DNA of 36,031 nucleotides from a virus (IMGVR_UViG_3300025120_014594:1-36031), one strand, 5' to 3'. Counted from the first letter of the stretch, positions 3,554 to 31,669 are shown. Notes: generated by a model from the letters alone, not told the origin. Translations and numbers: made by a program.

Positions 3554-3582
3554 ATTATAATAAATATTTATATGGATTTCAA
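3554..3582 (-). promoter_or_regulatory. Early-type promoter of the 3546 to nrdA operon
   Basis: On the minus strand TTGAAA (3577-3582), a 17-base spacer and TATAAT (3554-3559) end seven bases before ATG 3546. The spacer contains the opposite-strand late box of the plus-strand gene at 3572, so early and late signals are interleaved here. Confidence 0.6.
3559..3566 (+). promoter_or_regulatory. T4-type late promoter, AATAAATA
   Basis: AATAAATA is followed by five bases and then ATG 3572. It overlaps the early promoter that reads the other way. Confidence 0.6.
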
Positions 3583-3802
3583 CGGCTTAGTTAAAAATAT
3601 ACTAGAAGACTTTAGAGCGCCTACCGATACCAAAAAACGAGTTAAAAGAACTTCCGGCAAGTATGGGTCGGCTAGCCCTATATTAAACGAGCCGCATGAT
3701 ACAAAGGCTATATCGGGATTCAAGGGGCAATCAAGTGGTAAAATTAAAGTTTTAAAATTTGCTTTACCTAAGCGTAAGAAGAAGACTAAAAGGCCATCTT
3801 AA
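3572..3802 (+). CDS. Small basic late protein
   Basis: This 76-residue protein starts at ATG 3572, chosen over an in-frame start at 3536 because a late box lies five bases before it. It begins MDFNGLVKNILEDFRAP and ends in a strongly basic tail with PKRKKKTKRPS, suggesting binding to DNA or to an acidic partner. The late promoter suggests a virion or packaging-related product. Its last 17 bases overlap the 3' end of the convergent lysozyme-like gene. I know no named family for it. Confidence 0.65.
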   Translation: MDFNGLVKNILEDFRAPTDTKKRVKRTSGKYGSASPILNEPHDTKAISGFKGQSSGKIKVLKFALPKRKKKTKRPS

Positions 3803-4304
3803 CGCCTTTTTGAATATCAGCGTCAGAAATCTTAGCAGCTTCTTTTTGACCATTTTCAAATTGAAAAATCGGTCTCATTAATTTCATTAAAACCTCTGGA
3901 TCGTTTAGATCAATTTTTTCGTCAACATCAAATCCAGATCCGTTTGAAACGTGTCTTGCGTAGTTAGCATTATTTGGATTATTATCTTCTGGAGGGGCAT
4001 ATCTATCAATAATTTTGTTAATAGTATCTATACCATATTTTTTACCGTATGTTCTTAAAATCCTAGCTGAAGCTCTAACTCCCATATGCATATCGCTAAA
4101 TCTCTCAAATTCTTCACCAGGCTCAGTTACCTCACCGTTCCAATTTGTAGGTGATGTTCGTATATTACCAGGGTTATTGTTGAAGATTGATGCAGATGCA
4201 GAACTTGCTGCTAGACCAGCAGCTAGAGCTCCTGCTGCTAATGCGTTACGAAATTTACCTTCTTCTATCATTTGTTGTTTGTAGTATTCTTCAAAGCTTT
4301 GCAT
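3786..4304 (-). CDS. Lysozyme-like (NPGNIR) virion protein with capsid-targeting-like N-terminus
   Basis: The core after residue 40 has the FNNNPGNIR opening, the F-x-D-x2-x-G-x-RA segment and the APPEDNNPNNANYARHVS segment of the phage P5-like/transglycosylase-type structural proteins, so it may cut peptidoglycan. Residues 1-15 resemble a T4 capsid-targeting peptide, and Ile-Glu-Glu15 followed by Gly16 fits the prohead protease rule (L/I-x-E). Residues 16-38 then look like a Sec signal: a short basic start (GKFR), an Ala/Leu/Gly run and an Ala-Ser-Ala end. The gene has its own late promoter overlapping the helicase stop. Packaging in the head, then exposure of an export signal, is my inference. 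Confidence 0.75.
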   Translation of the reverse strand: MQSFEEYYKQQMIEEGKFRNALAAGALAAGLAASSASASIFNNNPGNIRTSPTNWNGEVTEPGEEFERFSDMHMGVRASARILRTYGKKYGIDTINKIIDRYAPPEDNNPNNANYARHVSNGSGFDVDEKIDLNDPEVLMKLMRPIFQFENGQKEAAKISDADIQKGVKMAF

Positions 4305-4309
4305 TATAA

Positions 4310-4317
4310 TATTTATA
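4310..4317 (-). promoter_or_regulatory. T4-type late promoter, TATAAATA
   Basis: A perfect TATAAATA ends five bases before ATG 4304 and overlaps the stop codon of the upstream helicase gene, letting the lysozyme-like gene be expressed late from inside an early operon. Confidence 0.75.
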
Positions 4318-12537: not shown

Positions 12538-13227
12538 ATGATTAATTTCGACGAGAAAAAACATAAGTACGTCAATACAGAAACTGGTAAGGAGCTCATA
12601 TCGGTAACTACCTTAATAGGTAAGTATAAGCCAGTATTTGATAAGATGGGCAATGCTACTCGTGTAGCTAAGAGGGAAGGGGTGTCAGTTGATTTTATTC
12701 TCGAAGAATGGGAAAGAGAAAAAAACCGTGCTTGTGACTACGGTACAGATATTCATAAGGTTATGGAAGACTTCTTAGCTGAGGGCAAGGTTGATGAGCA
12801 GTTTCGATCTCTCTACGATTCATATAGAAAGTGGGAGCATATATTTGAAAAATTTCCAAAGCTTAAGTGCGAAGAGCAGCTTAATAATGTGGATATTAAT
12901 GTCGCGGGGACCGCTGACCTTTTATATGAAAATAAAACTCATTTCTATGTAGGAGATTTTAAGACTAATAAAGCCTTTAGATTCGTCAGCGATTATAATG
13001 AGTTTTTTAAATTCCCTCTAGATCATTTAGGTGTCTGCGAATTTAATACATACGCATTACAGTTATCTATATATGCAATGCTATATGAAAATATGAGCGG
13101 TAAAAAGTGCAGCGGGTTAGTTATCTTCTATAAGAACAAAGTTAACGATACGTGGTACCCAATAAGATTAAACTATATGAAGAGTGAAGTTATTGCGTTA
13201 ATTGAAGATTACAATAATCCCAGTTAA
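12538..13227 (+). CDS. PD-(D/E)XK nuclease, RecB/Cas4-like
   Basis: This 229-residue protein has the RecB-family order: YGTDIHKVMEDFL near residue 63, the catalytic Asp in AGTADLLYE, Asp-x-Lys in VGDFKTNKAF, and the QxxxY-type YALQLSIYAMLYE. These residues bind metal and cut DNA in Cas4, RecB and phage exonuclease proteins. It is probably a DNA end-processing or degradation enzyme. The early promoter implies action soon after infection. Its last 38 bases overlap the 3' end of the convergent superoxide dismutase gene. Confidence 0.8.
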   Translation: MINFDEKKHKYVNTETGKELISVTTLIGKYKPVFDKMGNATRVAKREGVSVDFILEEWEREKNRACDYGTDIHKVMEDFLAEGKVDEQFRSLYDSYRKWEHIFEKFPKLKCEEQLNNVDINVAGTADLLYENKTHFYVGDFKTNKAFRFVSDYNEFFKFPLDHLGVCEFNTYALQLSIYAMLYENMSGKKCSGLVIFYKNKVNDTWYPIRLNYMKSEVIALIEDYNNPS

Positions 13228-13813
13228 CAATCTTTAAAAATTGCTTAATATACTTTTCCCTATTAGGCCCGTACTTTTTATAGTAAGCATGCTCCCATAC
13301 ATCTATACCAAGTAGTATAGTTACGTCTGAATCCATTAAAGGGTTATCTTGGTTGTTGGTAGGTATTAATTCTAATTTATTACCCTTCTTAACTAACCAC
13401 AACCAACCTGAACCGAAATGAGCTAAAGCTTCTTCAACAAATTTAGCTTTGAAGCCTTCAACGCTCTTATATTGTGTTTCAATTAAGTCTTTTACTTCGC
13501 CAGATATTGCTTTTCTATCTGGAGTCATCATATTCCAGAATAACTGATGATTATAAGCTCCGCCAGCATTATTACGAATAGCATCTTTTTTAGATTTAGC
13601 TTTTTTGACAATAGATAATAAATCTTGTTTATTGGTAGCTGGTAAAGCAGCATTTAATTTTTTAACATAACCTTTATAGTGTTTATTAAAATGTAAATTC
13701 ATTGTTTCAGCATCGATATAAGGCTCTAAAGCATCTAAAGCGTAAGGAAGCTTTATAGGCTTAATACCCTCAACGCTCTCTAAAATAACATCTGCTAATT
13801 CATCATAATTCAT
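13190..13813 (-). CDS. Superoxide dismutase, Fe/Mn family (Mn-like) with an N-terminal extension
   Basis: This 207-residue protein has all four metal ligands: His41, His89 (in AYNHQLFW), Asp171 and His175 (in GIDVWEHAYY). Gly-Gly before His89 and Gln155 in NNQDNPLM are marks of Mn-type rather than Fe-type enzymes. The enzyme turns superoxide into peroxide and oxygen. About 17 residues (NYDELADVILESVEG) precede the usual LPYALDAL start and include an L/I-x-E site. It is the third gene of the late Nudix operon; its start overlaps the small basic gene's stop. Late timing and the extension hint at packaging, by inference. Confidence 0.9.
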   Translation of the reverse strand: MNYDELADVILESVEGIKPIKLPYALDALEPYIDAETMNLHFNKHYKGYVKKLNAALPATNKQDLLSIVKKAKSKKDAIRNNAGGAYNHQLFWNMMTPDRKAISGEVKDLIETQYKSVEGFKAKFVEEALAHFGSGWLWLVKKGNKLELIPTNNQDNPLMDSDVTILLGIDVWEHAYYKKYGPNREKYIKQFLKIVNWDYCNLQLTQ

Positions 13814-15050: not shown

Positions 15051-17099
15051 TTACTTACTGATAGCTCTATAAACTTTATCCCAATCTTCCCCTGGATCAT
15101 TACCCTTTAAATCAGCTACCCGGTCTTTCATCATATTATAATAATATTCTAACTCTGTATTTTCTTTTATTGATTTATTAAGAGTATTTTCTGCTTTCAC
15201 CCAATCTCTATTCTTATAATGCTTTAAGAATGTATCATGTAGTATATAATTGAATTGGTCATTTAATACCGTATAAACTGTTATACCTTCTTTCTTACCT
15301 TTAACGGCAATTTTATCTAATTCTATAAATTTAAACTTATTACGTATAAGATTAACAGTTTCTTGGCCTAATAAGATACCGACACCGTATGCTTTTGTTT
15401 GGCCTTCAAGTCTTGCAGCTAAATTGACTCCATCGCCTAAACATGTATAATCGAATCTTTGATCTGAACCCATATTACCGACAACAACTCTACCGGTATT
15501 AATACCGATACCGATTGCTAATGGTTTCTTACCTTCTTCAATTAACTGTATATTGAGATTAGAAAGTTCTAATTGCATTTTTATTGCAACTTCGATCGCT
15601 CTTACCCGGTGAGATAATTGATCTTCGGGCAGAGGTGCATTCCAAAACGCCATTAATGCATCACCGATATATTTGTCTATAGTGCCACCTGATTCCATTA
15701 CTATACGAGTCATTGGAGTTAGATAACGGTTAATAAGATAAGTTAAACCTTGGGGGTTATCTTTAAACTGTTCACTGATTGTAGTAAACCCTCTTATATC
15801 AGAAAACAATATAGTTAAGTCTTGCGTATCACCGCCAAGTTTCAGCATATTAGGGTTCTTTTGTAGCTTCTTAACTATTTCAGGAGCTAGATAATGCTCA
15901 AATTGTTTCTTAATTAACATCTTACCCTTATATTCATGTATAAATCTAAGAAATATTGCTATAGTAAATATAATAAAGGAACTATAAACAGGAAAAGTAA
16001 AATCTATTAAAAGATTATGCTTACTAAATAACCAAAACCCGTATATCGGTAAAGTAATAGTTACAGCACTTATTAGTATTGCGTTAATAACCCATAGAAA
16101 ATTAAGAGCACATAGCGTCAACACTAAGCTCAGTGCTAATGTAAAGGCTATTTCATATAGAGTTGCTTCAACGGGTCTACTAAGTATATTATCATTAGCA
16201 AGAGTTTCGATAACCTGCATGTTAAGCTCATGACCGTTACTAACTTTAATTGGGGTAGCTACTGAATTAGATAGACCTTCGGCTGTTAGCGCTATAACTG
16301 TTATTCTATCTCGAACCTTTGACCAATCTTCGTCAACGACCGATATTTTATCAAACTCTGTATCGTAGTTTATCCAAACCCTCGCATTTTCATCTGTTTC
16401 GAATGTACCTACGTTTTTTAATCTAATAGCTTCAACCCCTGCTTGGTCTGTCTTTACTTGATAGGATGTATCTCCGACTAGAACTCTTAATACCTCAAGC
16501 GGTAATGTCGGGTATACCTCTCCTTTAACTTGTATCATTAAAGGCATACGACGTACAACACCATCGAGCTCCGGAGCGGTAACGGTCATACCTATACCTC
16601 GTGCGTTAAGACCAACGCTATCGATCGGCCCTATACCATTTGGGTAGTCATACAACCAATCTGTTAGCTCAACTGAACCTATAGCAGTTATTTTTTGAGA
16701 TAAGAGCTCACCTTTACCCTGTATAGCTGCTGATTGAGCTGTAACTACTGGGTAGTTGTATAATGTATCTGCAAATATATTGTCTCCACCTAGCCTGTCT
16801 TCTTCTGCAAATAATATAGGTACTACAACGAGAGCAGCTCCATTCATATAAGCCTTTTCTATATAATGGGAAAGTATTCCTCTGTGCCATGGCCATTGAC
16901 CGTGCTTCTCTAGGCTAGCCTCATCTAACTCTACTATTGTAAAGAGCTCAGACTGTCTAATATTCTGTGTTTTTTGATAATAGTCTAGACCTTTTAGTCT
17001 TAAAATTTCAACAGGGTACGGGTCGTATATTCTTAGCGCAGAAAATAAGATTGCCGCTACTGCACAGTATAGGAATGGTTTAAATTTGTTTAGTTTCAT
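15051..17099 (-). CDS. CHASE2-class III adenylate cyclase
   Basis: This 682-residue protein has a membrane segment at about 8-24, a CHASE2 sensor domain in the periplasm at about 30-310, three membrane segments near 318-336, 338-358 and 366-386, and a class III cyclase domain at 425-600. The two metal aspartates are Asp434 (FSDIRGF) and Asp480 (KYIGDAL). Lys476 and Thr552 (DYTCLGD) match adenylate rather than guanylate specificity, and Asn559 and Arg563 are the transition-state pair. It should make cAMP in response to an envelope signal. It overlaps the FecR gene by four bases (ATGA) and has a late box 10 bases before its start. Confidence 0.9.
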   Translation of the reverse strand: MKLNKFKPFLYCAVAAILFSALRIYDPYPVEILRLKGLDYYQKTQNIRQSELFTIVELDEASLEKHGQWPWHRGILSHYIEKAYMNGAALVVVPILFAEEDRLGGDNIFADTLYNYPVVTAQSAAIQGKGELLSQKITAIGSVELTDWLYDYPNGIGPIDSVGLNARGIGMTVTAPELDGVVRRMPLMIQVKGEVYPTLPLEVLRVLVGDTSYQVKTDQAGVEAIRLKNVGTFETDENARVWINYDTEFDKISVVDEDWSKVRDRITVIALTAEGLSNSVATPIKVSNGHELNMQVIETLANDNILSRPVEATLYEIAFTLALSLVLTLCALNFLWVINAILISAVTITLPIYGFWLFSKHNLLIDFTFPVYSSFIIFTIAIFLRFIHEYKGKMLIKKQFEHYLAPEIVKKLQKNPNMLKLGGDTQDLTILFSDIRGFTTISEQFKDNPQGLTYLINRYLTPMTRIVMESGGTIDKYIGDALMAFWNAPLPEDQLSHRVRAIEVAIKMQLELSNLNIQLIEEGKKPLAIGIGINTGRVVVGNMGSDQRFDYTCLGDGVNLAARLEGQTKAYGVGILLGQETVNLIRNKFKFIELDKIAVKGKKEGITVYTVLNDQFNYILHDTFLKHYKNRDWVKAENTLNKSIKENTELEYYYNMMKDRVADLKGNDPGEDWDKVYRAISK

Positions 17100-18097
17100 T
17101 GTTGATTAATATTTATAATTACTTGTCCACCGCTGTTATGGCTACCTGATATAATATTGCCTTGATTTTCGTAGTTTACAGTTACGGACGCGGATGAATC
17201 GAAAGATACGCTAACTTTATTTTGATTTTCGTCAGCTATAAAATATATTTTATTATCTATCTCGGTGAAGATTGAACCAGCATCTTCTCTAGTTACTATA
17301 ATTTCGTCGATCTTAATTATCTCTTCCTCTCTCTCTACAAGCTCTTCTTCATTAATATTTTCTTCTATATCCGACTGCCCATCTGCTTCTGGCTCAGGCT
17401 CTGCATCCGGCTCATCATTATCTTCGCCTTCATCTTTCCCCTCATCCTCACCGTCATCTTCATTCTGCTTATCCTTTTTCTCTTGCTTTTCTATCCTGCT
17501 TATAGTTGTTCGAGATAGAACTACTGGCGGGGTGGGAGGCGATACCATGCTCGCAACAACAGTATTTTCAAAAGGTATAGTTAGGAGAACGCTTCCGGAT
17601 ATATTACTAACCTCGATCTGCCCAGTATAGGAATTACCGGTTAAATCAGTCGACGGTAGAAGAGTAAAAGAGCTTTTACCTGACTCTGCAACTGTTACAT
17701 TGAAATCGGTACCTCTAACTGAAACTGAAGCAGTGGGGGTATTAATTTTTATATTTTCCTTATTAGCTATTAAACCAGATGTATATCTAATATTACCTAG
17801 AGAGGCTTTTAAACTAAGCTTACCCTTTTTAGTTTTAGGTTCATAAACAAAATCATCTATAACTAGTTCACTATACTCTTTAATCTTTACCTTAGTATTG
17901 TCATCAAACACTAAATGAACGACGCCATTGAGTGTCTCAACAACGTCGTTCATTTCTATTAAAGTACCTTTTTCAGTTAATATCTTTTCACTACTTCTTG
18001 TAATCTGCGCTGGCTGTGACTGGTAACTTACCTTACCAATTGAACCGAAACATAAATTAACTAATAATAAATTAAGGAGTAATAATTGTACCGCCAT
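17096..18097 (-). CDS. FecR-domain secreted protein with acidic linker
   Basis: I start it at ATG 18097, giving 333 residues that begin MAVQLLLLNLLLVNLCFGS, a signal peptide. An upstream in-frame start would put 29 unrelated residues before it. A FecR-type domain follows (about residues 20-150), with the G-x-L-x-x-x-D-x-V-x-T ... F-D-D-N-T-K-V-K-I pattern. Then come a Pro-rich hinge, a long Glu/Asp low-complexity linker (EDDGEDEGKDEGED) and a beta-rich C-terminus with N/S/G repeats. FecR proteins usually relay an envelope signal. Its end overlaps the cyclase start, and its start overlaps the curlin gene's end by 26 bases. I infer it may be the periplasmic partner of the CHASE2 cyclase. Confidence 0.75.
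   Translation of the reverse strand: MAVQLLLLNLLLVNLCFGSIGKVSYQSQPAQITRSSEKILTEKGTLIEMNDVVETLNGVVHLVFDDNTKVKIKEYSELVIDDFVYEPKTKKGKLSLKASLGNIRYTSGLIANKENIKINTPTASVSVRGTDFNVTVAESGKSSFTLLPSTDLTGNSYTGQIEVSNISGSVLLTIPFENTVVASMVSPPTPPVVLSRTTISRIEKQEKKDKQNEDDGEDEGKDEGEDNDEPDAEPEPEADGQSDIEENINEEELVEREEEIIKIDEIIVTREDAGSIFTEIDNKIYFIADENQNKVSVSFDSSASVTVNYENQGNIISGSHNSGGQVIININQQ
17110..17117 (-). promoter_or_regulatory. T4-type late promoter, TATAAATA
   Basis: TATAAATA inside the last codons of the FecR gene, 10 bases before the cyclase ATG 17099. It would allow the cyclase to be expressed separately. Confidence 0.6.
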
Positions 18098-18809
18098 TAC
18101 CCATTGGGTTAATAGGCGCTGTAATATCTGCTGTGTTATAATAACCATCTGATTGGATAACTGTAAATGTTGCATCGCTACCAATATGAGTTAATTCAAA
18201 TACCTGTGAATTAAGACCTGATTGGTGTATATCTATTGAGTTATTACCACCGGCAATATCAACTATTTGTATATGCCCGATACCACCTGGGTTACCTTCT
18301 TGAATTGATGTTACAGTATTAAATCCACCCATTACATTATAATCAACCTTCGAGAATGTGGTGTCGTTGAGGCTGAAATCAAACGCGTTACCAGCTCCAT
18401 AAACATTAAGATCAAAGTCTTGGTTTGAAATTAAGGCTGCGTTGCCATCGATATAACCTTCAATCATAAGCGAGTTACTGTCACCTAGAAGATTAATATC
18501 TAAGTCGTTCTTATCACCATTGATATATACGTCGAGTAAGTTGTAATCGCCTTCAGTATAAATATCTACTAATGTCTCGTCTCCTGCTGTATCCCAGATA
18601 ATAGCATTTGAATTACCTAGCTGAGTAATTGCAAAAATATTATTATCACCATTAATATAGGCAATATCATCACTTGAACCGATTTGATTACCGTCACCAA
18701 TTTGTGTTAACGTATAATTACCAGTACTGCCGATCTGATCAATGTAAATTTCATTATCAGCGTGCAATAATGAAGCGAATAAGAGTGTAAGTAGTGTTAT
18801 TTGTTTCAT
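18072..18809 (-). CDS. Curlin-repeat (amyloid) secreted protein
   Basis: This 245-residue protein starts with a Sec signal (MKQITLLTLLFASLLHA, then DNEIY). The mature part has repeats of the curlin kind: IYIDQIGSTGNYTLTQIG, then NIFAITQLGNSN, then several with DxNxLDV-like strands and N-G-D turns. The curlin consensus S-x5-Q-x4-N-x5-Q is clear in the first repeats and looser later, where Gln is often replaced by Asp or Asn. Curlins are exported through CsgG and polymerise outside the cell. The gene follows csgG with a 4-base gap and has its own late box. It may be the CsgA-like subunit. No CsgB-like partner was seen. Confidence 0.82.
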   Translation of the reverse strand: MKQITLLTLLFASLLHADNEIYIDQIGSTGNYTLTQIGDGNQIGSSDDIAYINGDNNIFAITQLGNSNAIIWDTAGDETLVDIYTEGDYNLLDVYINGDKNDLDINLLGDSNSLMIEGYIDGNAALISNQDFDLNVYGAGNAFDFSLNDTTFSKVDYNVMGGFNTVTSIQEGNPGGIGHIQIVDIAGGNNSIDIHQSGLNSQVFELTHIGSDATFTVIQSDGYYNTADITAPINPMGNGGTIITP

Positions 18810-18813
18810 ATAA

Positions 18814-19686
18814 TTATTTATCTACTTTTATAAGATAATTATCATTATCCAACAGATTCACATTACTGCTAACCTTGTGATCATCAGTTATGTCTAACTC
18901 CCATAATCCTTTTTCATGACCTTGATTAATTAAATCTACTATTGCAGCGGCAATTGCACATCTAACAGCTATTGAACTTCTTTCGTTATTTGATACACCA
19001 AACTCTGCTTCGATTAACTGAGGGTCGGTATCCAGGTCGATATAATGAAAATATGTTGAATGTGCTCCTATACTTAGTATAGTTTTAGAAACCGTCGTTG
19101 ACATTAATACTTGACCAGTCTGCGAATTAATCATGCGAAGGGATACGGTAACAACGTCTTTTCTATATTGCTTCCCTATACCTATACCTTTATGAAATAG
19201 ACCTGCACCTCCTGTAACGAAATTACTTTCGAACGATATAATCCCGCCTTCAATAATTAGACCCGCATAAAGCATGGGCTTAACATCTGGCAGTTTTTCA
19301 TCTGAGAAGCTTTGTCTTGTGCTTTTAATTAGATTTCTTTCAGTCAATACATTTTGTATATTTTCTCTCTCTAATACACTAAACCATTGACCGTTACCAG
19401 CGTTAATTAACTCTTCAACTAGCCAAGCGTACCCGCCTTGAGTTACTGCGGAAGAGAAGCTTGCAAAGGCGTCTCCTTCCTTCCGCTGACCTGTATGATC
19501 TGCAAAAGAATAAGGCGCAACAAAAACAGGGCCCTTTACTAATTTAGGATATTCATGGTTTTGCCAAATAAAATTACCGTTTTCAATTGAATATCTTCGT
19601 ATATCCTCAACTTGCGGCACGTTTCTAACCGGCATAGTAGCGCAGCCAGAAGCAAATAAAACTGATAAAACTAATAAAACTTTCAT
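18814..19686 (-). CDS. csgG: Curli secretion pore lipoprotein CsgG
   Basis: This 290-residue protein starts at ATG 19686, giving MKVLLVLSVLFASGC, a lipoprotein signal with Cys15. A TTG ten codons upstream would spoil the signal. The body matches E. coli CsgG throughout: VFVAPYSFADHTGQ, QWFSVLERENIQNVLTERNL, the IIEGGIISFESN strand, VTVSLRMINSQTGQVL, and a closing KGLWEL. The pore's constriction segment reads KEGDAFASFSSAV: the Phe equivalent to E. coli Phe56 is kept, but the Asn55 and Tyr51 positions look changed. In bacteria nine copies form the outer-membrane channel for curlin. It starts one base after the csgF stop. Confidence 0.92.
   Translation of the reverse strand: MKVLLVLSVLFASGCATMPVRNVPQVEDIRRYSIENGNFIWQNHEYPKLVKGPVFVAPYSFADHTGQRKEGDAFASFSSAVTQGGYAWLVEELINAGNGQWFSVLERENIQNVLTERNLIKSTRQSFSDEKLPDVKPMLYAGLIIEGGIISFESNFVTGGAGLFHKGIGIGKQYRKDVVTVSLRMINSQTGQVLMSTTVSKTILSIGAHSTYFHYIDLDTDPQLIEAEFGVSNNERSSIAVRCAIAAAIVDLINQGHEKGLWELDITDDHKVSSNVNLLDNDNYLIKVDK
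18815..18822 (-). promoter_or_regulatory. T4-type late promoter, GATAAATA
   Basis: GATAAATA overlaps the csgG stop codon and ends five bases before the curlin ATG 18809. Confidence 0.65.
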
Positions 19687-19687
19687 A

Positions 19688-20131
19688 TTATGGAGTTGGT
19701 ATATATAGCGAACCAACCGGTATTAAAATTGTTGTCGTACTGCCTGTTAAAATATCAAAAACTTCTAGTGAGATATTATCTGAATCTTGCGACCAGGTTA
19801 TAGTACTATCCTCTAATGTAAATGTACCGGTTGCTCCTGATTCGGAGAATAATTGTTCTGTAATTTGTTTTGTCAGTTCAGAATAAATTCGTGACTGTAA
19901 ATTAGTCATAAAGACATTTTCAGGTTTTCGTGATTCTGATAATGATAATCTTAGAGCTAGCGCTTCAGCTTCTTCAGTAATATTTGTTTTTCTTGTGAAG
20001 GAGATATTTTCTATATTCAAAATATGGCTTGAATATCCAATACCGGTAAATGTCGGAGACTTAAATTGAAATTTGAGCTCATTCCCGAGTAAAGTTATCG
20101 GTAAAATAACAAAGAGCAGTACTTTTTTCAT
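19688..20131 (-). CDS. csgF: Curli accessory protein CsgF
   Basis: This 147-residue protein begins with a Sec signal (MKKVLLFVILPITLLG, then NELKF). The start of the mature part, LKFQFKSPTFTGIG, equals the CsgF segment that plugs into CsgG's pore (E. coli F-Q-F-R-N-P-N-F-G-G). It continues with NLQSRIYSELTKQITEQLF and a beta C-terminus with SLEVFDILTGSTTTILIP, matching CsgF order. CsgF sits on CsgG's outer side and helps curlin nucleate at the surface. It has its own late box (GATAAGTA) and precedes csgG. This gene makes the CsgG assignment secure. Confidence 0.88.
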   Translation of the reverse strand: MKKVLLFVILPITLLGNELKFQFKSPTFTGIGYSSHILNIENISFTRKTNITEEAEALALRLSLSESRKPENVFMTNLQSRIYSELTKQITEQLFSESGATGTFTLEDSTITWSQDSDNISLEVFDILTGSTTTILIPVGSLYIPTP

Positions 20132-20137
20132 ACAAAC

Positions 20138-20145
20138 TACTTATC
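20138..20145 (-). promoter_or_regulatory. Late-type promoter, GATAAGTA
   Basis: GATAAGTA ends six bases before the csgF ATG 20131. One base differs from GATAAATA at the curlin gene, which is otherwise preceded by the same GTAGATAA context. Confidence 0.5.
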
Positions 20146-20456
20146 TACTTTTTAATTTTTTTCAACAGCGCGTCTTCTTTTCTTTTATACTCGTCTTCGA
20201 GTATTTGCCTTCTCTCTTTTTCTTGAAGAATCATCTTAAGCTTTATATTCAAACGAATCATATCGTTATCTAACATTCTAACTTTATCTATTAATCCAAT
20301 TAAAGTTTTCTTGGATTCGCCAATTGTTGGCGATATATCCTTCGTAACCCATTGCCAGATATAATATACAAAATAGCCCAGTCCGATGGCTGCAATTATA
20401 GGGAAGCCAAAATCTTGTACGAGCTTTGAAAAGTGATCTATTGTTTGGTCATTCAT
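20145..20456 (-). CDS. Single-span membrane protein, BhlA-like holin candidate
   Basis: This 103-residue protein has a short N-terminus, one membrane segment (DFGFPIIAAIGLGYFVYYIWQ), and a long charged coiled coil ending in Lys. This layout, with the Phe-Gly-Phe-Pro-Ile start of the helix, resembles BhlA/UviB-type holins. The gene overlaps the end of a similar gene upstream (TAATG) and its stop lies just before csgF. It is probably a paralogue of its neighbour. A role in envelope disruption or as an anchor for the curli machinery is inferred. Confidence 0.6.
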   Translation of the reverse strand: MNDQTIDHFSKLVQDFGFPIIAAIGLGYFVYYIWQWVTKDISPTIGESKKTLIGLIDKVRMLDNDMIRLNIKLKMILQEKERRQILEDEYKRKEDALLKKIKK

Positions 20457-20737
20457 TAATCTTTCCTCGCATCTTCTTTACCCTCGGAAGCTGCTATCCT
20501 ATCTAAGTTTGGCTCTACGTTAAATGCATGAGATATAAGAGTATCAATCTTAACAATTTCATTTGTCATTACATCTACCCTATTTTGTAGACTACTTATC
20601 ATGCCACCGAGACCAGCCACAGAGCCTTTAACTCCGTTGAGTATAAATTTAAGAATAATAAAAACAAATACCCCCGATGCTAAGGCACCTGCAATAGGAA
20701 ACCCAACTTCAGTTAAAAATCTTATAAACCCGCTCAT
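20456..20737 (-). CDS. Single-span membrane protein, paralogue of its neighbour
   Basis: The start is ATG 20737 (93 residues), chosen because a late box lies five bases before it; a longer in-frame start at 20815 is unlikely. It has one membrane segment, EVGFPIAGALASGVFVFIILK, then a basic-and-acidic coiled coil. The G-F-P-I helix start and the arrangement match the next gene, suggesting tandem duplication, perhaps a holin/antiholin pair. Transcription from its late promoter could run on through csgF, csgG, curlin, FecR and cyclase. Confidence 0.6.
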   Translation of the reverse strand: MSGFIRFLTEVGFPIAGALASGVFVFIILKFILNGVKGSVAGLGGMISSLQNRVDVMTNEIVKIDTLISHAFNVEPNLDRIAASEGKEDARKD

Positions 20738-20742
20738 ATAAA

Positions 20743-20750
20743 TATTTATG
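20743..20750 (-). promoter_or_regulatory. T4-type late promoter, CATAAATA
   Basis: CATAAATA ends five bases before ATG 20737 and heads the minus-strand string into the curli genes. Confidence 0.7.
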
Positions 20751-21446: not shown

Positions 21447-22097
21447 TTATTTAGTTACACCTTCTTTGGTTTTCCAGAAGTATTCATCCGTATCCCCTAA
21501 CCGGTATTCGTACCCGCTTTCTACTTGATAATATTTTGTACTAACTTTAAAATCTGGCATCTTAGGTTTTTGTGGAGTTAAAGAATTATCATAAACTCTC
21601 ATTCTGTTATTTGGGTATAACGCATATTGACCATTTTCCAATTCTATACAGTTAAATGATTTATGTTCATCTGGTACCTCCGCTGTAGAATAGTCAACGC
21701 GGTCTGGGTCTGGGTGATAATTGTCTAGAGTAAACATATACGTACCCTTAACAACCTGATGGCTTCTTGTAAAAACTTCAAAATCCATCGAACCTATAAA
21801 CTGCTTATATATTGCAACGACACCATAATCCATGCAATTCCAAAATTGTAAATCTTGTAAAGGTAAATCTGGATCAGGCGTTTCTGGTGAGGAAACAAAT
21901 GCTGATATTGGTAGTTTATCAAAAAGAGCTCCATACTCCGGTAAGTACGTTTCAAAATAGAATGCTCTACCAGGTAGTGATTTAGCACTAACCCAATGAC
22001 CTTCTACAAATTCACCATGACCTTCCTCACCGTCATGTAAATATTCTTTCCTTACATAAACTTTCGCGTTAGGTAAATTACAAATTAGTTCGCTCAT
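21447..22097 (-). CDS. Conserved phage protein of unknown function
   Basis: This 216-residue protein is acidic and rich in aromatic residues and Pro. The blocks HGEFVEGHWVSAKSLPGRAFYFETYLPEYGA, LQFWNCMDYG, TLDNYHPDPDR and ELENGQYALYPNNRMR are, as I recall, shared with proteins of marine T4-like phages, but no function is known to me. It has no signal or membrane segment. A late box stands seven bases before its ATG. A virion or late assembly role is possible. Confidence 0.7.
   Translation of the reverse strand: MSELICNLPNAKVYVRKEYLHDGEEGHGEFVEGHWVSAKSLPGRAFYFETYLPEYGALFDKLPISAFVSSPETPDPDLPLQDLQFWNCMDYGVVAIYKQFIGSMDFEVFTRSHQVVKGTYMFTLDNYHPDPDRVDYSTAEVPDEHKSFNCIELENGQYALYPNNRMRVYDNSLTPQKPKMPDFKVSTKYYQVESGYEYRLGDTDEYFWKTKEGVTK
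21448..21455 (-). promoter_or_regulatory. Late-type promoter, ACTAAATA
   Basis: ACTAAATA ends eight bases before ATG 21439 and covers the stop of the upstream gene. Confidence 0.45.
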
Positions 22098-22104
22098 ATA
22101 AAAA

Positions 22105-22112
22105 TATTTAGC
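22105..22112 (-). promoter_or_regulatory. Late-type promoter, GCTAAATA
   Basis: GCTAAATA ends seven bases before ATG 22097. The same box, with nearly the same spacing, stands before PhoH on the other strand. Confidence 0.55.
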
Positions 22113-22120
22113 GCATTAAC

Positions 22121-22861
22121 TTAAACCTTCAAGGCCATATCCCATATAACTAACTGCAATCTTGGGCTAAATTTAAAGTTATGTTTCTTACACAACTCAG
22201 CTACCATGGCTGACTTAGCTGTATGCTCTTCTCTACTACCAGCGCAAGGCATTAACCATACATTATCTGGATTAACTAGACCGTTATCAATATATTTTTC
22301 AAATAGTTCCTTTTCATCCGCCTCATTATTAATAACAAACTTAAAGCATTCATTATGACTATTATGATGAGCTATAACATCAGGTTTATATCTACGCTTT
22401 TCAGGGTCACCATTATTACTCATCTTAGGAGATAAAGTAAAATCAGCATTAAAATCATCATACCATCTATCCATGGGTTTGAGAGTACTATTAGATTCAA
22501 AATCTATTTTAGGTATAAATCCAAATCTTTCAACAAACGTATCCATCCATAATAATAATCTTTTTTGCTGCAATAAAGGTTCACCTCCAGTAATTTTCAA
22601 TAATGCCCCCCTCTTTAACTCTTTATCAAAGCCATTTTCTTCATAGAAATCATTAAGCTGATCATATGTATATCGATTTTTAATAGACCATGATACGAAT
22701 GAATCACAACCATGAGGTGAATCTGGAGACGCAAATCCCTGACAAGTTAAATTACACATTGCAAGTCTCATAAAGACTGAAGGCCAACCAATATATTTTC
22801 CCTCACCTTCTACGGTATAAAATACATGATCATCACTTAAAGATAAAATATCGCTACTCAT
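22121..22861 (-). CDS. queE: 7-carboxy-7-deazaguanine synthase QueE
   Basis: This 246-residue radical SAM enzyme has FYTVEGEGKYIGWPSVFMRL followed by the cluster cysteines, then ITGGEPLLQ, the SAM-binding motif, and a TLSPKMS segment. It converts the QueD product carboxy-tetrahydropterin into 7-carboxy-7-deazaguanine, on the path to preQ0. The cluster loop is unusual: after CNLTC there are 11 residues before the next Cys, in place of the common two. The start follows an early promoter six bases away. With FolE2 and QueD here, three of the four preQ0 steps are present; QueC is not seen. Confidence 0.92.
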   Translation of the reverse strand: MSSDILSLSDDHVFYTVEGEGKYIGWPSVFMRLAMCNLTCQGFASPDSPHGCDSFVSWSIKNRYTYDQLNDFYEENGFDKELKRGALLKITGGEPLLQQKRLLLWMDTFVERFGFIPKIDFESNSTLKPMDRWYDDFNADFTLSPKMSNNGDPEKRRYKPDVIAHHNSHNECFKFVINNEADEKELFEKYIDNGLVNPDNVWLMPCAGSREEHTAKSAMVAELCKKHNFKFSPRLQLVIWDMALKV

Positions 22862-22867
22862 ATAACA

Positions 22868-22896
22868 ATTATAATATAGTTCCGTATTATTATCAA
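22868..22896 (-). promoter_or_regulatory. Early-type promoter of queE
   Basis: TTGATA (22891-22896), a 17-base spacer and TATAAT (22868-22873), then six bases to ATG 22861. Confidence 0.65.
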
Positions 22897-22961
22897 CACA
22901 TAGTACTATATTTAATCATTTTTATGATACTTTCTGACTATATTAGCACCCACTAATAATT

Positions 22962-22969
22962 GCTAAATA
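22962..22969 (+). promoter_or_regulatory. Late-type promoter, GCTAAATA
   Basis: GCTAAATA ends seven bases before ATG 22977 of PhoH. Confidence 0.55.
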
Positions 22970-22976
22970 TTTGTAT

Positions 22977-23744
22977 ATGTCGAAAAGAACTACTACTCGT
23001 AAAAGAGTTAAGGCGGTTCGGAGGCAGGCTCCCATAGAGGATATTGCTTTCGAAAAAACGGTTGATAATCCAGCTGATTGGGATTTAGACTTCAAGATAA
23101 AAGAAAACTATCAATTAACACCTACACAGGTAGGTTTAATGAAAAAAATGCTGCAGCAAGATACGCGAATGTGTATGGTTGACGGGCCCGCGGGAACGGC
23201 CAAAACATATATAGCTGTCTTAGCTGCCCTAAAATTATTACAACGCAGGCAAGTTGATAGTATAATTTATATAAGATCTATTGTTGAGAGTGCTTCAAGA
23301 AGTATGGGTGCTTTGCCCGGGGAGTTGGAAGAAAAGTTCGCCCCTTGGTCAATGCCACTTATTGATAAGTTAGAAGAGGTACTCTCAGGCGGTGTTGGTA
23401 ATAATTTAATGTCAAAAGGTTATATTAAGTGTATACCTGTTAATTTTACAAGAGGGTTAACGTTTAAGAATTCCTGTGTTATTATTGACGAAGCGCAAAA
23501 TATGACTACCTCGGAACTAACGACAATTTTAACACGCTTTGGTGTCGATAGTAAATATGTTGTTGTCGGGGATACTTATCAAGCTGATATTGGCGTTAAG
23601 AGTGGGTTTAAAAGAATATGTAAAGCTTTCAGCACACCGGGTTCAGATGAATGGGGGATAGAGACATTTAATTTTACTAGTGATGATATAGTACGTAGTG
23701 AAGTTTTAAGATTTATTGTCGATCGACTCAGTACTATCAAGTAA
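22977..23744 (+). CDS. phoH: PhoH-like P-loop ATPase
   Basis: This protein of about 255 residues is taken from ATG 22977, placed seven bases after a late box; a TTG two codons earlier is less likely. A basic N-terminus (KRTTTRKRVKAVRRQ) precedes Walker A GPAGTAKT, a YIRSIVESASRSMG block, and Walker B VIIDEAQN. These define the PhoH family, widespread in marine phages. It probably acts on RNA or nucleotides under stress, but its precise role in phages is unsettled. Its end overlaps the convergent 89-residue gene by 39 bases. Confidence 0.93.
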   Translation: MSKRTTTRKRVKAVRRQAPIEDIAFEKTVDNPADWDLDFKIKENYQLTPTQVGLMKKMLQQDTRMCMVDGPAGTAKTYIAVLAALKLLQRRQVDSIIYIRSIVESASRSMGALPGELEEKFAPWSMPLIDKLEEVLSGGVGNNLMSKGYIKCIPVNFTRGLTFKNSCVIIDEAQNMTTSELTTILTRFGVDSKYVVVGDTYQADIGVKSGFKRICKAFSTPGSDEWGIETFNFTSDDIVRSEVLRFIVDRLSTIK

Positions 23745-23975
23745 CTCTCTCATAGCCTGTTCAATGTTAACAGGTTGTATGTCGTTATTGGTAGGTGGTC
23801 TAATCTGCGGGGTTGCTTCCTTAGGTAATGCATCTTGCATTTTTGCAAATACATCTTGCTCGAGCTTTACCTGACTTGGATCTCTTTCACGAGAAGAGGG
23901 CATGCCACCTGACATACCCCCGTTTCCAATTGAACCTTTATTAATATTATTCTGGTATATATCCCCTAAATCCAT
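23706..23975 (-). CDS. Small protein of unknown function downstream of QueD
   Basis: This 89-residue protein is Gly/Met/Ser-rich in the middle (GSIGNGGMSGGMPSSRERD) and acidic at the end (MRELLDSTES). It looks partly disordered. The ATG overlaps the stop of QueD (TAATG), so it is coupled to it, and its last 39 bases overlap PhoH from the other strand. The coupling is the main support. I recognise no family. Confidence 0.55.
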   Translation of the reverse strand: MDLGDIYQNNINKGSIGNGGMSGGMPSSRERDPSQVKLEQDVFAKMQDALPKEATPQIRPPTNNDIQPVNIEQAMRELLDSTESIDNKS

Positions 23976-24637
23976 TATGAGTTACCCCAAGAGGTACCAG
24001 CGAATGGGTCTGAAAAAGAATTACTAGTTTTCTTCGCGTATAGCGGAGTAGGTATTTGACCCATATCATTTACCACCGTCTCATTCTTTACTTCATCATT
24101 TTCGATAGCGGATGCCTCAATTTCTTCTTCTTTTAAATCAAATAAACTTTGTTGGGAATCGTCAACTGGTATATGTCCTTCGTCTTTAATAGTATTTACT
24201 AATTCTTCATATATAGCACTATTACCTTCATGCTCCCATACTTCTACCTTAATAACTCTTACACGATTATTAGTTTGTTCCAGAACAAGCTTATTTGCAT
24301 TTTCGTATACCCATTCAGCTGTTCTTTCAATACCAACACCTTTATCAGCAATACGTAAATCAACCATACCCTTATCAGACATTAACTTAAATGTATCTAA
24401 CTCTGGATCATCAGCAGCTACTACAGTCGTATGATCATATTGCTTCTCGAGAAGATTTTTAATCTCTTTACAGCCTCCAAAATCATAGATCCAATTCTTA
24501 TGATCTAATTCATCTGCTGTAAACCATAACTTACATTGTAAACGATAACCATGAATTAACTTGCAATGACTATCTGCTCTCCACTGACGAAAGGCTGTAC
24601 TACCCATCGGTATAATTTTTGTTGATACATATCTCAT
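23975..24637 (-). CDS. queD: QueD-like 6-carboxytetrahydropterin synthase with altered zinc site
   Basis: This 220-residue protein has the QueD fold signature SHCKLIHGYRLQCKLWF, YDHTTVVAADDPELDTF and KVEVWEHEGNSAIYEE. It would turn dihydroneopterin triphosphate into carboxy-tetrahydropterin. The zinc triad is not standard: the catalytic Cys is kept (SHC), the first His of the HGH pair is kept, but the second is Tyr (HGY), and the earlier N-terminal His is absent (FRQWR in its place). A C-terminal extension of about 70 residues, acidic and then Pro/Ser-rich, has no match I know. An early promoter stands six bases before ATG 24637. Confidence 0.85.
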   Translation of the reverse strand: MRYVSTKIIPMGSTAFRQWRADSHCKLIHGYRLQCKLWFTADELDHKNWIYDFGGCKEIKNLLEKQYDHTTVVAADDPELDTFKLMSDKGMVDLRIADKGVGIERTAEWVYENANKLVLEQTNNRVRVIKVEVWEHEGNSAIYEELVNTIKDEGHIPVDDSQQSLFDLKEEEIEASAIENDEVKNETVVNDMGQIPTPLYAKKTSNSFSDPFAGTSWGNS

Positions 24638-28301: not shown

Positions 28302-29192
28302 ATGATGGATAATAAACCAACTAACGAGTTTATTGAGTTTCGTAAAAATATTTTTGATACCTTTGTAATAGAGGAAGATAATATTATGTCTGCGTTACAG
28401 ATTATTGATGTTAATGTAACTGAAATATGTACACGTAAGTGTGTTTTTTGTCCTAGAGTTGATAAGAACATATATCCTAATAGGAACCTGCATATGTCGT
28501 TAGAAACGTGTGAAAAACTAGCTAATGATCTAGCTGAATTTGAATATAAGAACCAAGTCGTATTTGCAGGGTTTAGTGAACCACTAGCGAATAAAAAAAT
28601 ATTCGATATTGTAAAGACTTTTAGAGATAAGCTACAATATAATAATAATATTTCTATTACTACTAATGGTGACTTATTAAAAGATGATACTCTCAAGAAA
28701 TTATTTGATAACGGTCTTAATCTGCTTAAGATGAGCTTGTATGACGGCCCGGAGCAGGAAGAAAGATTCTTAGAACAATTTGAGCGATGCAATGTAACCC
28801 CTGATCAATATGTTATTAAGAGATTCTGGTACGGTCCAGAAGAAGAGTATGGTATGTCGGGTATTAGTAACCGGGTCGGAATGATGAAATTGAACGATAG
28901 AGAGGTGCCAATCAGACCTTGTTATATGTCTTTTAATTCATCTTTTATAGACTGGAACGGAGACGTTCTATTATGTACACATAACTGGAGAAAGGATATA
29001 AAGTTCGGGAATATACATAAAAATAGTCTCAAAGATATATGGCTATCAGAAGCAGCTAAAACAATGAGACAACACCATATACTAAACGGTAGAAAAGGTA
29101 AATCTCCCTGTACTGATTGTGAAGTACACGGTCAAGTATACGGTGCAGATTCATTTAAACTATTTAAAGATTATTATGGAAAAGAAGATTAA
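28302..29192 (+). CDS. Radical SAM-SPASM protein A
   Basis: This 296-residue protein has the cluster motif CTRKCVFC at about residues 45-52 and a C-terminal SPASM-like region with CYMSFNSSFIDWNGDVLLC and CTDCEVHG, likely binding extra iron-sulphur clusters. Such enzymes modify peptides, sugars or lipids by radical chemistry. It is a paralogue of the minus-strand protein at 30812 (the same blocks in the same order). Its neighbours are a GT8-like enzyme overlapping its end and other glycan genes. The substrate is unknown. Confidence 0.85.
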   Translation: MMDNKPTNEFIEFRKNIFDTFVIEEDNIMSALQIIDVNVTEICTRKCVFCPRVDKNIYPNRNLHMSLETCEKLANDLAEFEYKNQVVFAGFSEPLANKKIFDIVKTFRDKLQYNNNISITTNGDLLKDDTLKKLFDNGLNLLKMSLYDGPEQEERFLEQFERCNVTPDQYVIKRFWYGPEEEYGMSGISNRVGMMKLNDREVPIRPCYMSFNSSFIDWNGDVLLCTHNWRKDIKFGNIHKNSLKDIWLSEAAKTMRQHHILNGRKGKSPCTDCEVHGQVYGADSFKLFKDYYGKED

Positions 29193-29838
29193 AATATTTG
29201 TAGGTCTAGACGATCCTCATAAAATTGCGTATGACAAGTGTATAAAGAGCATACTGGATAAAAATAATAGGTATGAGCTTGATATTCAACCTATAAACTA
29301 CAATACAGTTGAAGGTTATGGTAGAAAAAAAGACCCATATGAATCTACGCAGTTTGCATTTGCTAGATTTTTTGTACCTTATCAAAGCGATTATAAGGGT
29401 ATAAGTGTATTCCTCGACGGAGATTTTCTTTTTCTTGAATCTATAGATAGGTTATTAGATTTATATAACCCGAAGTATGCTATACAATGCTGTAAGCATG
29501 AATATAATCCAACTAATTTGCAAAAAATGGACGGTAAGCCTCAAACATCTTGGCCTCGTAAGAACTGGAGTAGTTTAATGATTTTTAATAATGAACACCC
29601 AAAGAATAAGACTTTAAACCCGCTTACAATCAATAATCAATCAGGTGCATTCTTGCATAGATTTAAATGGTTAGAAGATGCAGAGATTGGGTCTATACCG
29701 CTACAATGGAACTGGTTGGTTGATTGGTACAAAGAGCCTCAGGACGGGGAGCCAATGGCTCTGCACTATACTGAAGGGGGCCCTTGGTTGCCGGAGTATA
29801 AAGATTGCGATTACGCTAATACGTGGTTAAATTATTAA
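29176..29838 (+). CDS. GT8-like glycosyltransferase
   Basis: This 220-residue protein starts at ATG 29176, giving MEKKIKIFVGLDDPHKIAYD. A longer in-frame start lies in the radical SAM gene. FLDGDFLFLESI supplies the D-x-D metal site, and the C-terminal HYTEGGPWLPEY is the GT8 acceptor motif. It overlaps the radical SAM gene by 17 bases, so the two are coupled. It would transfer a sugar from a nucleotide donor. Its 3' end overlaps the convergent unknown gene by 4 bases. Confidence 0.75.
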   Translation: MEKKIKIFVGLDDPHKIAYDKCIKSILDKNNRYELDIQPINYNTVEGYGRKKDPYESTQFAFARFFVPYQSDYKGISVFLDGDFLFLESIDRLLDLYNPKYAIQCCKHEYNPTNLQKMDGKPQTSWPRKNWSSLMIFNNEHPKNKTLNPLTINNQSGAFLHRFKWLEDAEIGSIPLQWNWLVDWYKEPQDGEPMALHYTEGGPWLPEYKDCDYANTWLNY

Positions 29839-30815
29839 TAAAAAACTGTATTTTGTTTTAACTCTCGGCCTATAATATCGATAGCTTGACTTTTATTTCT
29901 TGTTATAAAAGTATCATAGTAAGAATGGCTAAACTTATCCATGCCGTATTTAAATAATTCATCTCTATAGGTATTATATACCTGCATAAAATCTATATAA
30001 CCCGCAGGTGAATTCTGTATATACCTACAATCTGTTAATAAGCTAGCTAGCGAACCTTTATCTTTACTAGTAAAGCCCGCTTCGGTCTTTCTAAATCCTA
30101 ACTTCTCGCTACTAAAACCATCATCATATAAATGAGTGGTTTCTATATCAAACTTATTACAGAAATGCTCTTTATAAGTATTACTACCGCTAATTAATAT
30201 TAATTTTTTATATTGCGTCTCATTTATTAAGAAACTACAAAATATATCTAACATTTTTATATCTTCGTCATTCTTAATTCTAAAAGTAGGTAAATTAATA
30301 AAATACTTATCTGCAGTAAACTTATCTAATGTATTACCTGTATTCTGGGTATCTACATTCACTAAGCCGATGCTATTTTCGTTCTTCGACTTATTAGTAT
30401 TATCTTCGTAGTGTAACTTTCCGGCATTATGCTTCTGTAAGTAATAGAACTTAACAGTGTTATCTAGTAAAAAATTTTTACCTCCAACGAGCCCGTTCAT
30501 GTACATATCATTAATACCTGTATCCTTTGATATTCTCTCAATAAATAATTTTTTAAGATAAGTATCGTCGCGATGCATTGGATCTTCTCGTATACCCTTA
30601 ACTGCTTTTAGTCTTAAATCTCTGAGAAGTTTATACGAATTATTATCTTCAATATTATGAAACACACACTCTTTATTTTTAAAGACGTTTGATATATCAG
30701 GTTTTATATAAAAGGTCTTTTTATGCTGACTGTAATACTGAGTAAGCATTATTAACCCGATCATAAAATCTGTATATGTTCTTCTTTCCCTAATAGCTTG
30801 CGCGAAATATATCAT
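29835..30815 (-). CDS. Unknown protein of the glycan island
   Basis: I do not recognise this 326-residue protein. It is rich in Lys, Asn, Tyr and Asp, has no signal or membrane segment, and has a central LILISGSNTYKEHFCNKF block that could be a nucleotide-binding (Rossmann) edge, followed by GFSSEKLGFRKTEAGFTSKDKGSLASLLTDCRYI, like the second half of a GT-B fold. The start is ATG 30815, overlapping the stop of the radical SAM gene by 4 bases. By context it could be a divergent glycosyltransferase. Confidence 0.6.
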   Translation of the reverse strand: MIYFAQAIRERRTYTDFMIGLIMLTQYYSQHKKTFYIKPDISNVFKNKECVFHNIEDNNSYKLLRDLRLKAVKGIREDPMHRDDTYLKKLFIERISKDTGINDMYMNGLVGGKNFLLDNTVKFYYLQKHNAGKLHYEDNTNKSKNENSIGLVNVDTQNTGNTLDKFTADKYFINLPTFRIKNDEDIKMLDIFCSFLINETQYKKLILISGSNTYKEHFCNKFDIETTHLYDDGFSSEKLGFRKTEAGFTSKDKGSLASLLTDCRYIQNSPAGYIDFMQVYNTYRDELFKYGMDKFSHSYYDTFITRNKSQAIDIIGRELKQNTVFY

Positions 30816-31669
30816 AGTTTATAATATTTTGTATATTGTTCCCCAACCTTTTCGCCATGTATATTACACTTATTGCACACCGCTAAATCTCTTTTACCTT
30901 TTTCTAAATGAGATCTATAATTATTTAGAAATGCTGATTCCCATATCTCTTTCAGCGAATGAGTGTTTATGTTTAGTTTATTTTTAGATAATTTAAACCA
31001 ATCCTCGCAGCATAAAATTTGATCTCCATTCCAGTCGATAAAAAGCTTATAGAATGGTAAAAAGCATTTATTTTTAATATTATCTTTTAATAAATCTGTG
31101 TTTACCTTTACTGCACCAGCTCTGTTAGTAAATCCAGAAAAGTTATCAGAGTGGTAATAGCTCTTCCGCAGAGTAAAGCTGTCTGAATCGTACCCTTCAA
31201 ACATTTTGCTGAATTTCTCTAACTGTTCATCCCCGTCATACAGGCTAACAACTATATGGTTAATACCGGCGTCATATATTTTTTCAATTATACCCTCCTT
31301 TATTTTATCACCATTAGTATTGATCTCATGCACCCTTAGTTGGGGATTCTCGCTGCTCAATATTTTAACTAATTTATAGAAATTCTTCGTTAATAAAGGC
31401 TCGCCATTACCCGACCATCCAACTCGGTTTGAGTAATTATTCAACTTAAGCTCTGAACTTAATTTTCGAATAGTATCTTCTGTAATATGTAGATTTTGAT
31501 TAGGATAAACCTTTGGGTCGCTTCGCGGGCAAAAGTGACATGTCCTATTGCAAAGCTCAGTAGGGTTAATTGTAATACTCTGCAACGCTTTCATTGGCGT
31601 CTTTTCGATATCTTCCGCGATTTGACGCTTTCTCAAATCAATAATATCTTGCTTATCATCTGCTATCAC
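30812..31669 (-). CDS. Radical SAM-SPASM protein B (paralogue)
   Basis: This 285-residue protein starts with GTG at 31669. CNRTCHFC is the SAM-cluster motif, and CFLPFYKLFIDWNGDQILCC with CNKCNIHG forms the SPASM end. Blocks shared with the 28302 gene include PNQNLHI, VSLYDGDEQ, FIDWNGD and the final HG. It is in opposite orientation and its neighbour differs (unknown 326-residue gene in place of GT8). This suggests duplication and divergence to different substrates. Confidence 0.82.
   Translation of the reverse strand: MIADDKQDIIDLRKRQIAEDIEKTPMKALQSITINPTELCNRTCHFCPRSDPKVYPNQNLHITEDTIRKLSSELKLNNYSNRVGWSGNGEPLLTKNFYKLVKILSSENPQLRVHEINTNGDKIKEGIIEKIYDAGINHIVVSLYDGDEQLEKFSKMFEGYDSDSFTLRKSYYHSDNFSGFTNRAGAVKVNTDLLKDNIKNKCFLPFYKLFIDWNGDQILCCEDWFKLSKNKLNINTHSLKEIWESAFLNNYRSHLEKGKRDLAVCNKCNIHGEKVGEQYTKYYKL

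Follow-up and report, generated by a model that had tools for sequence, protein, structure and literature searches.

The stretch of DNA analysed here, which we refer to as the window, comprises 36,031 nucleotides of an IMG/VR virus record (IMGVR_UViG_3300025120_014594:1-36031) with T4-type genes such as NrdA and a helicase. On the minus strand of this contig, which belongs to a marine T4-like phage, lies a module of genes arranged head to tail, encoding CsgF, CsgG, a curlin-like repeat protein, a FecR-domain protein and a CHASE2-class III nucleotide cyclase. The original prediction, made from the sequence alone, had already placed CsgF, CsgG, FecR and the cyclase at this locus, and Pfam confirms the domain of each: CsgF (19688..20131, 147 aa; E 3.8e-15), CsgG (18814..19686, 290 aa; 6.6e-45), FecR (17096..18097, 333 aa; 3.3e-10), and both CHASE2 (1.1e-33) and Guanylate_cyc (1.9e-24) in the 682-aa cyclase (15051..17099). 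The starts of CsgG and FecR had to be moved to 19686 and 18097, respectively. Between these two genes, and directly after CsgF and CsgG, lies the gene of the 245-aa curlin-like protein (18072..18809), the predicted export cargo. The account of 15051-20737 as a five-gene region holds for these five genes, but passed over two small paralogous proteins within the same coordinates, both matching phrog_18771, of which protein A (20456..20737, 93 aa) forms the head of the module and protein B (20145..20456, 103 aa) follows it.

A chimeric assembly, which had been named as a possible objection, is unlikely, as the module recurs on a 61-kb contig overlapping the window, on a 78-kb relative (CsgG 78% and cyclase 82% identical to those of the window) and on dozens of further contigs from phages. 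The overlapping contig also encodes a DnaB-type helicase, UvsX and a T4-type DNA polymerase, along with SbcCD-like genes. Since this polymerase is at most ~33% identical to those of sequenced phages, the lineage of the window is a divergent one. The sole lead on its host is NrdA, which is 56% identical to that of Pelagibacter phage Mosig.

The secretion components carry the expected hallmarks. CsgG, predicted to form the outer-membrane export pore, has an SGC lipobox and matches solved CsgG structures in the PDB (2.6e-40). CsgF combines a signal peptide with an N-terminal plug segment, in which FxxPxFxG is kept in an alignment with Pelagibacter phage HTVC008M and Methylophilales phage Melnitz; a PDB search with the CsgF profile matched no chain. 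The curlin repeats claimed for the third protein hold at the level of the family, but not for the window protein by itself, which reaches only E 0.038 for Curlin_rpt, below the Pfam gathering score. Among its aligned phage orthologues, 24 of 39 do match Curlin_rpt (best 3.4e-7), and it is at this level that the tandem repeats with a Q/G/N pattern and a period of ~22 residues are recognised. Moreover, a profile trained on the phage set recovers the curlins beside most bacterial csgG genes, with up to 124 bits, and finds no curlin in 20 control loci, these being the neighbourhoods of bacterial CHASE2-cyclases. The AlphaFold2 model of the curlin-like protein is beta-arch or solenoid-like with a 22-residue period (predicted local distance difference test, pLDDT, 78). 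As such, the claims of a phage location, an exporter-type CsgG/CsgF pair and a curlin-like cargo are all supported.

The FecR gene overlaps the end of the curlin gene by ~26 nt, and its product consists of a signal peptide, the FecR domain, an acidic linker and C-terminal curlin-like strands ending in IININQQ. A Foldseek search with the AlphaFold2 model showed that the FecR domain resembles the periplasmic domains of PupR and other anti-sigma factors; a cytoplasmic N-terminal anti-sigma domain is absent, the signal peptide preceding the FecR domain instead. A motif [hydrophobic]-x-[hydrophobic]-x-Q followed by 0-2 residues closes 50 out of 50 complete, distinct phage FecRs, as well as 46/54 first and 22/32 second curlins of the phage loci. 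It is present in only one of 346 other phage proteins and in no CsgG, CsgF, cyclase or small protein; in bacteria it ends 16 of 35 curlins versus none of 10 FecRs. Other phage proteins and bacterial FecRs were included as references because a shuffle test of the tail takes no account of relatedness. Furthermore, AlphaFold2 places five strands at residues 283-332 of the window FecR, in a strand-2-strand-4-strand rhythm with the ~22-residue period of the curlin model, at a pLDDT of ~70-80. The same FecR model also aligns over 62 columns (root-mean-square deviation 1.3, 22% identity, E 0.05) with a cell-surface anchoring domain (PDB 5ix9), so that FecR domains may be connected with the anchors of surface adhesins.

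In the window cyclase, alignment with CyaB indicates that all active-site residues are intact: D434 and D480 for metal, K476 and T552 for adenine, and N559 and R563 for the transition state. Both metal aspartates, the lysine and the arginine are retained in all phage cyclases checked, whereas the adenine and transition-state pattern differs per branch, being K/T/N in that of the window, which we take to be typical of class IIIb adenylate cyclases, and K/S/N in HTVC008M-like enzymes. In 13 Melnitz-like cyclases (L003, L014, L017, L018, L021, L030, L031, L041, L044, L045, L058, L062 and L064) the pattern is K/D, with Asp for Thr and Ser for the transition-state Asn. Judging by these residues, the window cyclase should be active, and the proposal that it raises cyclic AMP is plausible for this phage; it is less secure for the Melnitz branch, where a changed product or a loss of activity is possible.

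Late boxes NATAAATA precede the first small gene, the curlin gene and the cyclase gene. Those expected before the latter two were thus found, but none lies directly before CsgF, for which one had also been claimed; it is the first small gene that has one. On the minus strand, CATAAATA (20743-20750) and GATAAATA (18815-18822) are positioned such that ATAAATA starts 12 nt before the ATG of small protein A and of the curlin, respectively, and for TATAAATA (17110-17117) this distance to the cyclase ATG is 17 nt. Across phage loci, such boxes occur upstream of 64/162 small genes, 24/82 CsgF genes and 10/42 cyclase genes, versus ~0.035 expected per 180 bp. Over the window as a whole TATAAATA is not enriched (11 versus 12.8 expected); only its position before gene starts is. 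ATAAATA lies exactly 12 nt before the ATG for 33 of the 88 gene-near boxes in the pooled unique viral sequences (the next commonest spacing accounts for 5 boxes). In HTVC008M (L089, 1-50000) this 12-nt class comprises tape measure, DNA end protector and baseplate genes as well as CsgF, so that the boxes of the module share their architecture with those of tail genes, in agreement with the late expression that had been proposed. In the window, boxes 12 nt before the ATG of an open reading frame are located at 4316, 18821, 20749, 34988 and 35992 on the minus strand, and at 3560 on the plus strand. T4 late promoters carry TATAAATA at -13 to -6. Combined with the 12-nt spacing, this geometry would put the transcription start on the A of the ATG, and these late mRNAs may be leaderless. 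No report of leaderless late mRNAs in T4-like phages was found in the literature searched.

To find out how far the arrangement extends, we surveyed IMG/VR with an alignment of three phage CsgGs, yielding 80 loci, where a single-protein CsgG scan of viral contigs had matched the window's own sequence only. The resulting set of 82 viral records consists of 79 IMG/VR loci outside the contig of the window, plus the window, HTVC008M and Melnitz, and includes some truncated loci and some near-copies. With few exceptions, the order small-small-CsgF-CsgG-curlin-FecR-(curlin2)-cyclase recurs throughout this set, as had been anticipated for related phages. The second curlin is absent from the window, L006, L007, L008, L022, L023, L028 and L078. 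Compared with the bacterial sequences sampled, which are one phylum-level draw, and with long branches in the trees flagged, all phages form a single clade in both the CsgG tree (support 100/99) and the cyclase tree (100/100), and in both the window groups with L006, L022 and L028.

The two small proteins, each with one N-terminal membrane segment and an otherwise coiled-coil-like sequence, adjoin the module in almost every phage locus, even where they have been inverted or moved: the pair is downstream and inverted in L007, L008 and L078, and downstream in L038. Within the annotated phage collection, protein A occurs only in HTVC008M and Melnitz. That the pair is kept with the module despite such rearrangements suggests dedicated partners rather than chance neighbours. 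Genes in this position are apparently called histidine kinase (HK) in the pelagiphage type VIII secretion system (T8SS) region (PMC9599517). We obtained no Pfam match to HisKA or HATPase domains in six members of the pair up to E = 1, and its PDB matches are weak and to coiled coils only. Equating the genes by position, the kinase label is apparently a mislabel.

As a system, this gene set has already been described. CsgF and CsgG were reported in pelagimyophages by Zaragoza-Solas 2020 (PMC7029224), and Wittmers 2022 (PMC9599517) described it in full in pelagiphages of both the myo and podo types, as HK-CsgF-CsgG-CsgA/B-FecR-(CsgA/B)-adenylate cyclase, argued for an alphaproteobacterial origin, and found viral curli genes to be expressed in ocean metatranscriptomes. 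The coupling of FecR to the cyclase, which the original prediction held to be undescribed, is therefore part of published T8SS modules, and it is annotated in the GenBank records of Melnitz as well. The labels there cover FecR, curlins and cyclase for Melnitz, and CsgF, CsgG, a curlin and the cyclase for HTVC008M. The absence of CsgE and CsgD likewise agrees with the literature. Melnitz (MZ577098) and HTVC008M (KC465899) have the order of the window with proteins that are ~30-60% identical, but unlike the window they carry a second curlin between FecR and cyclase. Compared with the published T8SS region, the window belongs to another T4-like branch, has no second curlin, and its genes at the HK position show no kinase domain. 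It represents a divergent, undescribed deep branch of a known system, in which the second curlin is missing and the cyclase site is intact.

Bacterial neighbourhoods clarify how this system is composed. Around 20 bacterial CHASE2-cyclase genes, a FecR-domain gene lies directly upstream (at most 90 nt) in seven and within ~3 kb in three more, whereas csgG, csgF and curlin genes occur in none. Conversely, around 20 bacterial csgG genes csgF and curlins are usual, and FecR, the CHASE2-cyclase and the small pair are found in none. Bacterial curli operons do have the pore, plug, repeat cargo and curlin C-terminal strand in common with the phage module. The bacterial FecRs paired with a cyclase are mostly longer than those of the phages and lack the curlin-type C-terminus (0/10). 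As the bacterial loci sampled keep the two apart, FecR-CHASE2 is a bacterial gene pair that stands by itself, and in the phage module this pair has been fused with curli export. Such a view agrees with and extends the earlier statement that FecR and cyclase genes lie outside bacterial curli operons (PMC9599517).

What, then, would such a module do? The reading we favour, and think somewhat probable, is that the phage carries a type VIII (curli) secretion module, in which a late exporter is combined with an envelope sensor linked to curlin. The host, late in infection, would make CsgG lipoprotein pores with CsgF plugs in its outer membrane, through which the curlin-like repeat protein would be secreted to polymerise at the surface. 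With its curlin-type terminal strands, the FecR protein could dock on, cap or seed the curlin, either at the pore or within the periplasm. Its FecR domain would at the same time face the CHASE2 domain that the inner-membrane cyclase exposes to the periplasm, and cyclase activity would then report, or gate, the state of export or of the fibre. The two small membrane proteins would act as dedicated partners. The domain content, gene order, co-inheritance, catalytic residues, late boxes and common C-terminal strand are features of the sequence itself. Beyond these, we infer that secretion and amyloid formation by the module are quite probable and that signalling from FecR to CHASE2 is likely, while docking of FecR on curlin is about evenly balanced, leaning towards doubt. 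A bolder version we regard as speculative and rather unlikely: here, the phage FecR would be chimeric, joining a periplasmic sensor domain to an end unit of curlin, and would plug into or nucleate curlin and pass the status of export or fibre on to the cyclase, so that the phage builds an amyloid-sensing second-messenger circuit out of two unrelated bacterial systems. Candidate benefits to the phage may include aggregation or trapping of new hosts, superinfection exclusion and the timing of lysis.

Several observations weigh against the favoured reading. Melnitz cultures showed no clumping by cytometry or transmission electron microscopy (PMC9004378), we identified neither CsgE nor a dedicated nucleator, and Foldseek returned no significant PDB match for the model of the curlin-like protein. 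Furthermore, the terminal motif is missing from the curlin of the window itself, which closes with an extension instead, and a profile-profile comparison (hhalign) of the FecR C-terminus with curlins was not significant. Because of the latter, we describe the FecR tail as a strong pattern, statistically unusual and common to FecR and curlin, and do not claim homology.

Buchholz 2022 (PMC9004378) discussed the CsgGF of Melnitz as a possible lysis pore, and a repurposed outer-membrane pore, acting like a gated secretin or pinholin to time host lysis with the curlin, FecR and cyclase as accessories, would fit the late boxes and the pair of small membrane proteins at the head of the module. A bare pore, however, needs neither a curlin-type cargo nor a curlin-tailed FecR, both of which are retained in essentially every complete locus, and the lysozyme-like gene of the window (3786-4304) is far from the module. 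The idea that the phage opens the envelope in this way, also raised in the original prediction, amounts to published speculation that the module does not specially favour, and we consider it improbable. Equally improbable, in our estimate, is that the cyclase influences the physiology of the host without any tie to curli, for instance through a cyclic AMP-driven change in host transcription, with clustering reflecting joint late transcription only. Its intact class IIIb-type site in the window, and the occurrence of bacterial CHASE2 cyclases without curli, would allow for this. Yet in the sampled phage loci, for which CsgG was the query, curli genes accompany FecR and cyclase almost without exception, and the Melnitz branch kept the gene even after changing the transition-state Asn.

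A role in nutrient uptake or iron regulation, with the pore importing macromolecules or siderophores and FecR as an iron-responsive regulator, has been suggested as well (PMC7029224, PMC9599517), and both the identity of the FecR domain and its Foldseek match to PupR/FecR-type periplasmic domains speak for it. We think this highly unlikely, given the signal peptide in place of the cytoplasmic anti-sigma domain, and given that neither a FecI-type sigma gene nor a TonB receptor was recognised beside the FecR gene in annotation scans of the window. Moreover, the partner of FecR in both bacteria and phages is a CHASE2 cyclase, and the presence of a FecR domain is by itself no indication of iron.

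Returning to the curli secretion module, the curlin-tailed FecR, the fusion of two systems, the non-kinase small pair and the fixed late-box spacing are details that add to what was known. If they hold, the curlin-tailed sensor, the FecR-CHASE2 pair moved onto curli, the apparently mislabelled membrane proteins and the late control would provide testable handles on what ocean phages do with curli, and with the proposed circuit, if true, a virus would have connected an amyloid exporter to a second messenger.

Elsewhere in the window, an iron/manganese superoxide dismutase gene is located at 13190-13813 on the minus strand (Pfam C-terminal domain, 1.4e-33; no PHROG match). The region 21447-24637, on the same strand, contains a ferredoxin-type gene (phrog_3704) together with QueE-like and QueD-like genes, a set suggesting a preQ0-type DNA base modification. 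Lastly, two radical SAM domain proteins are encoded on opposite strands within 28302-31669.

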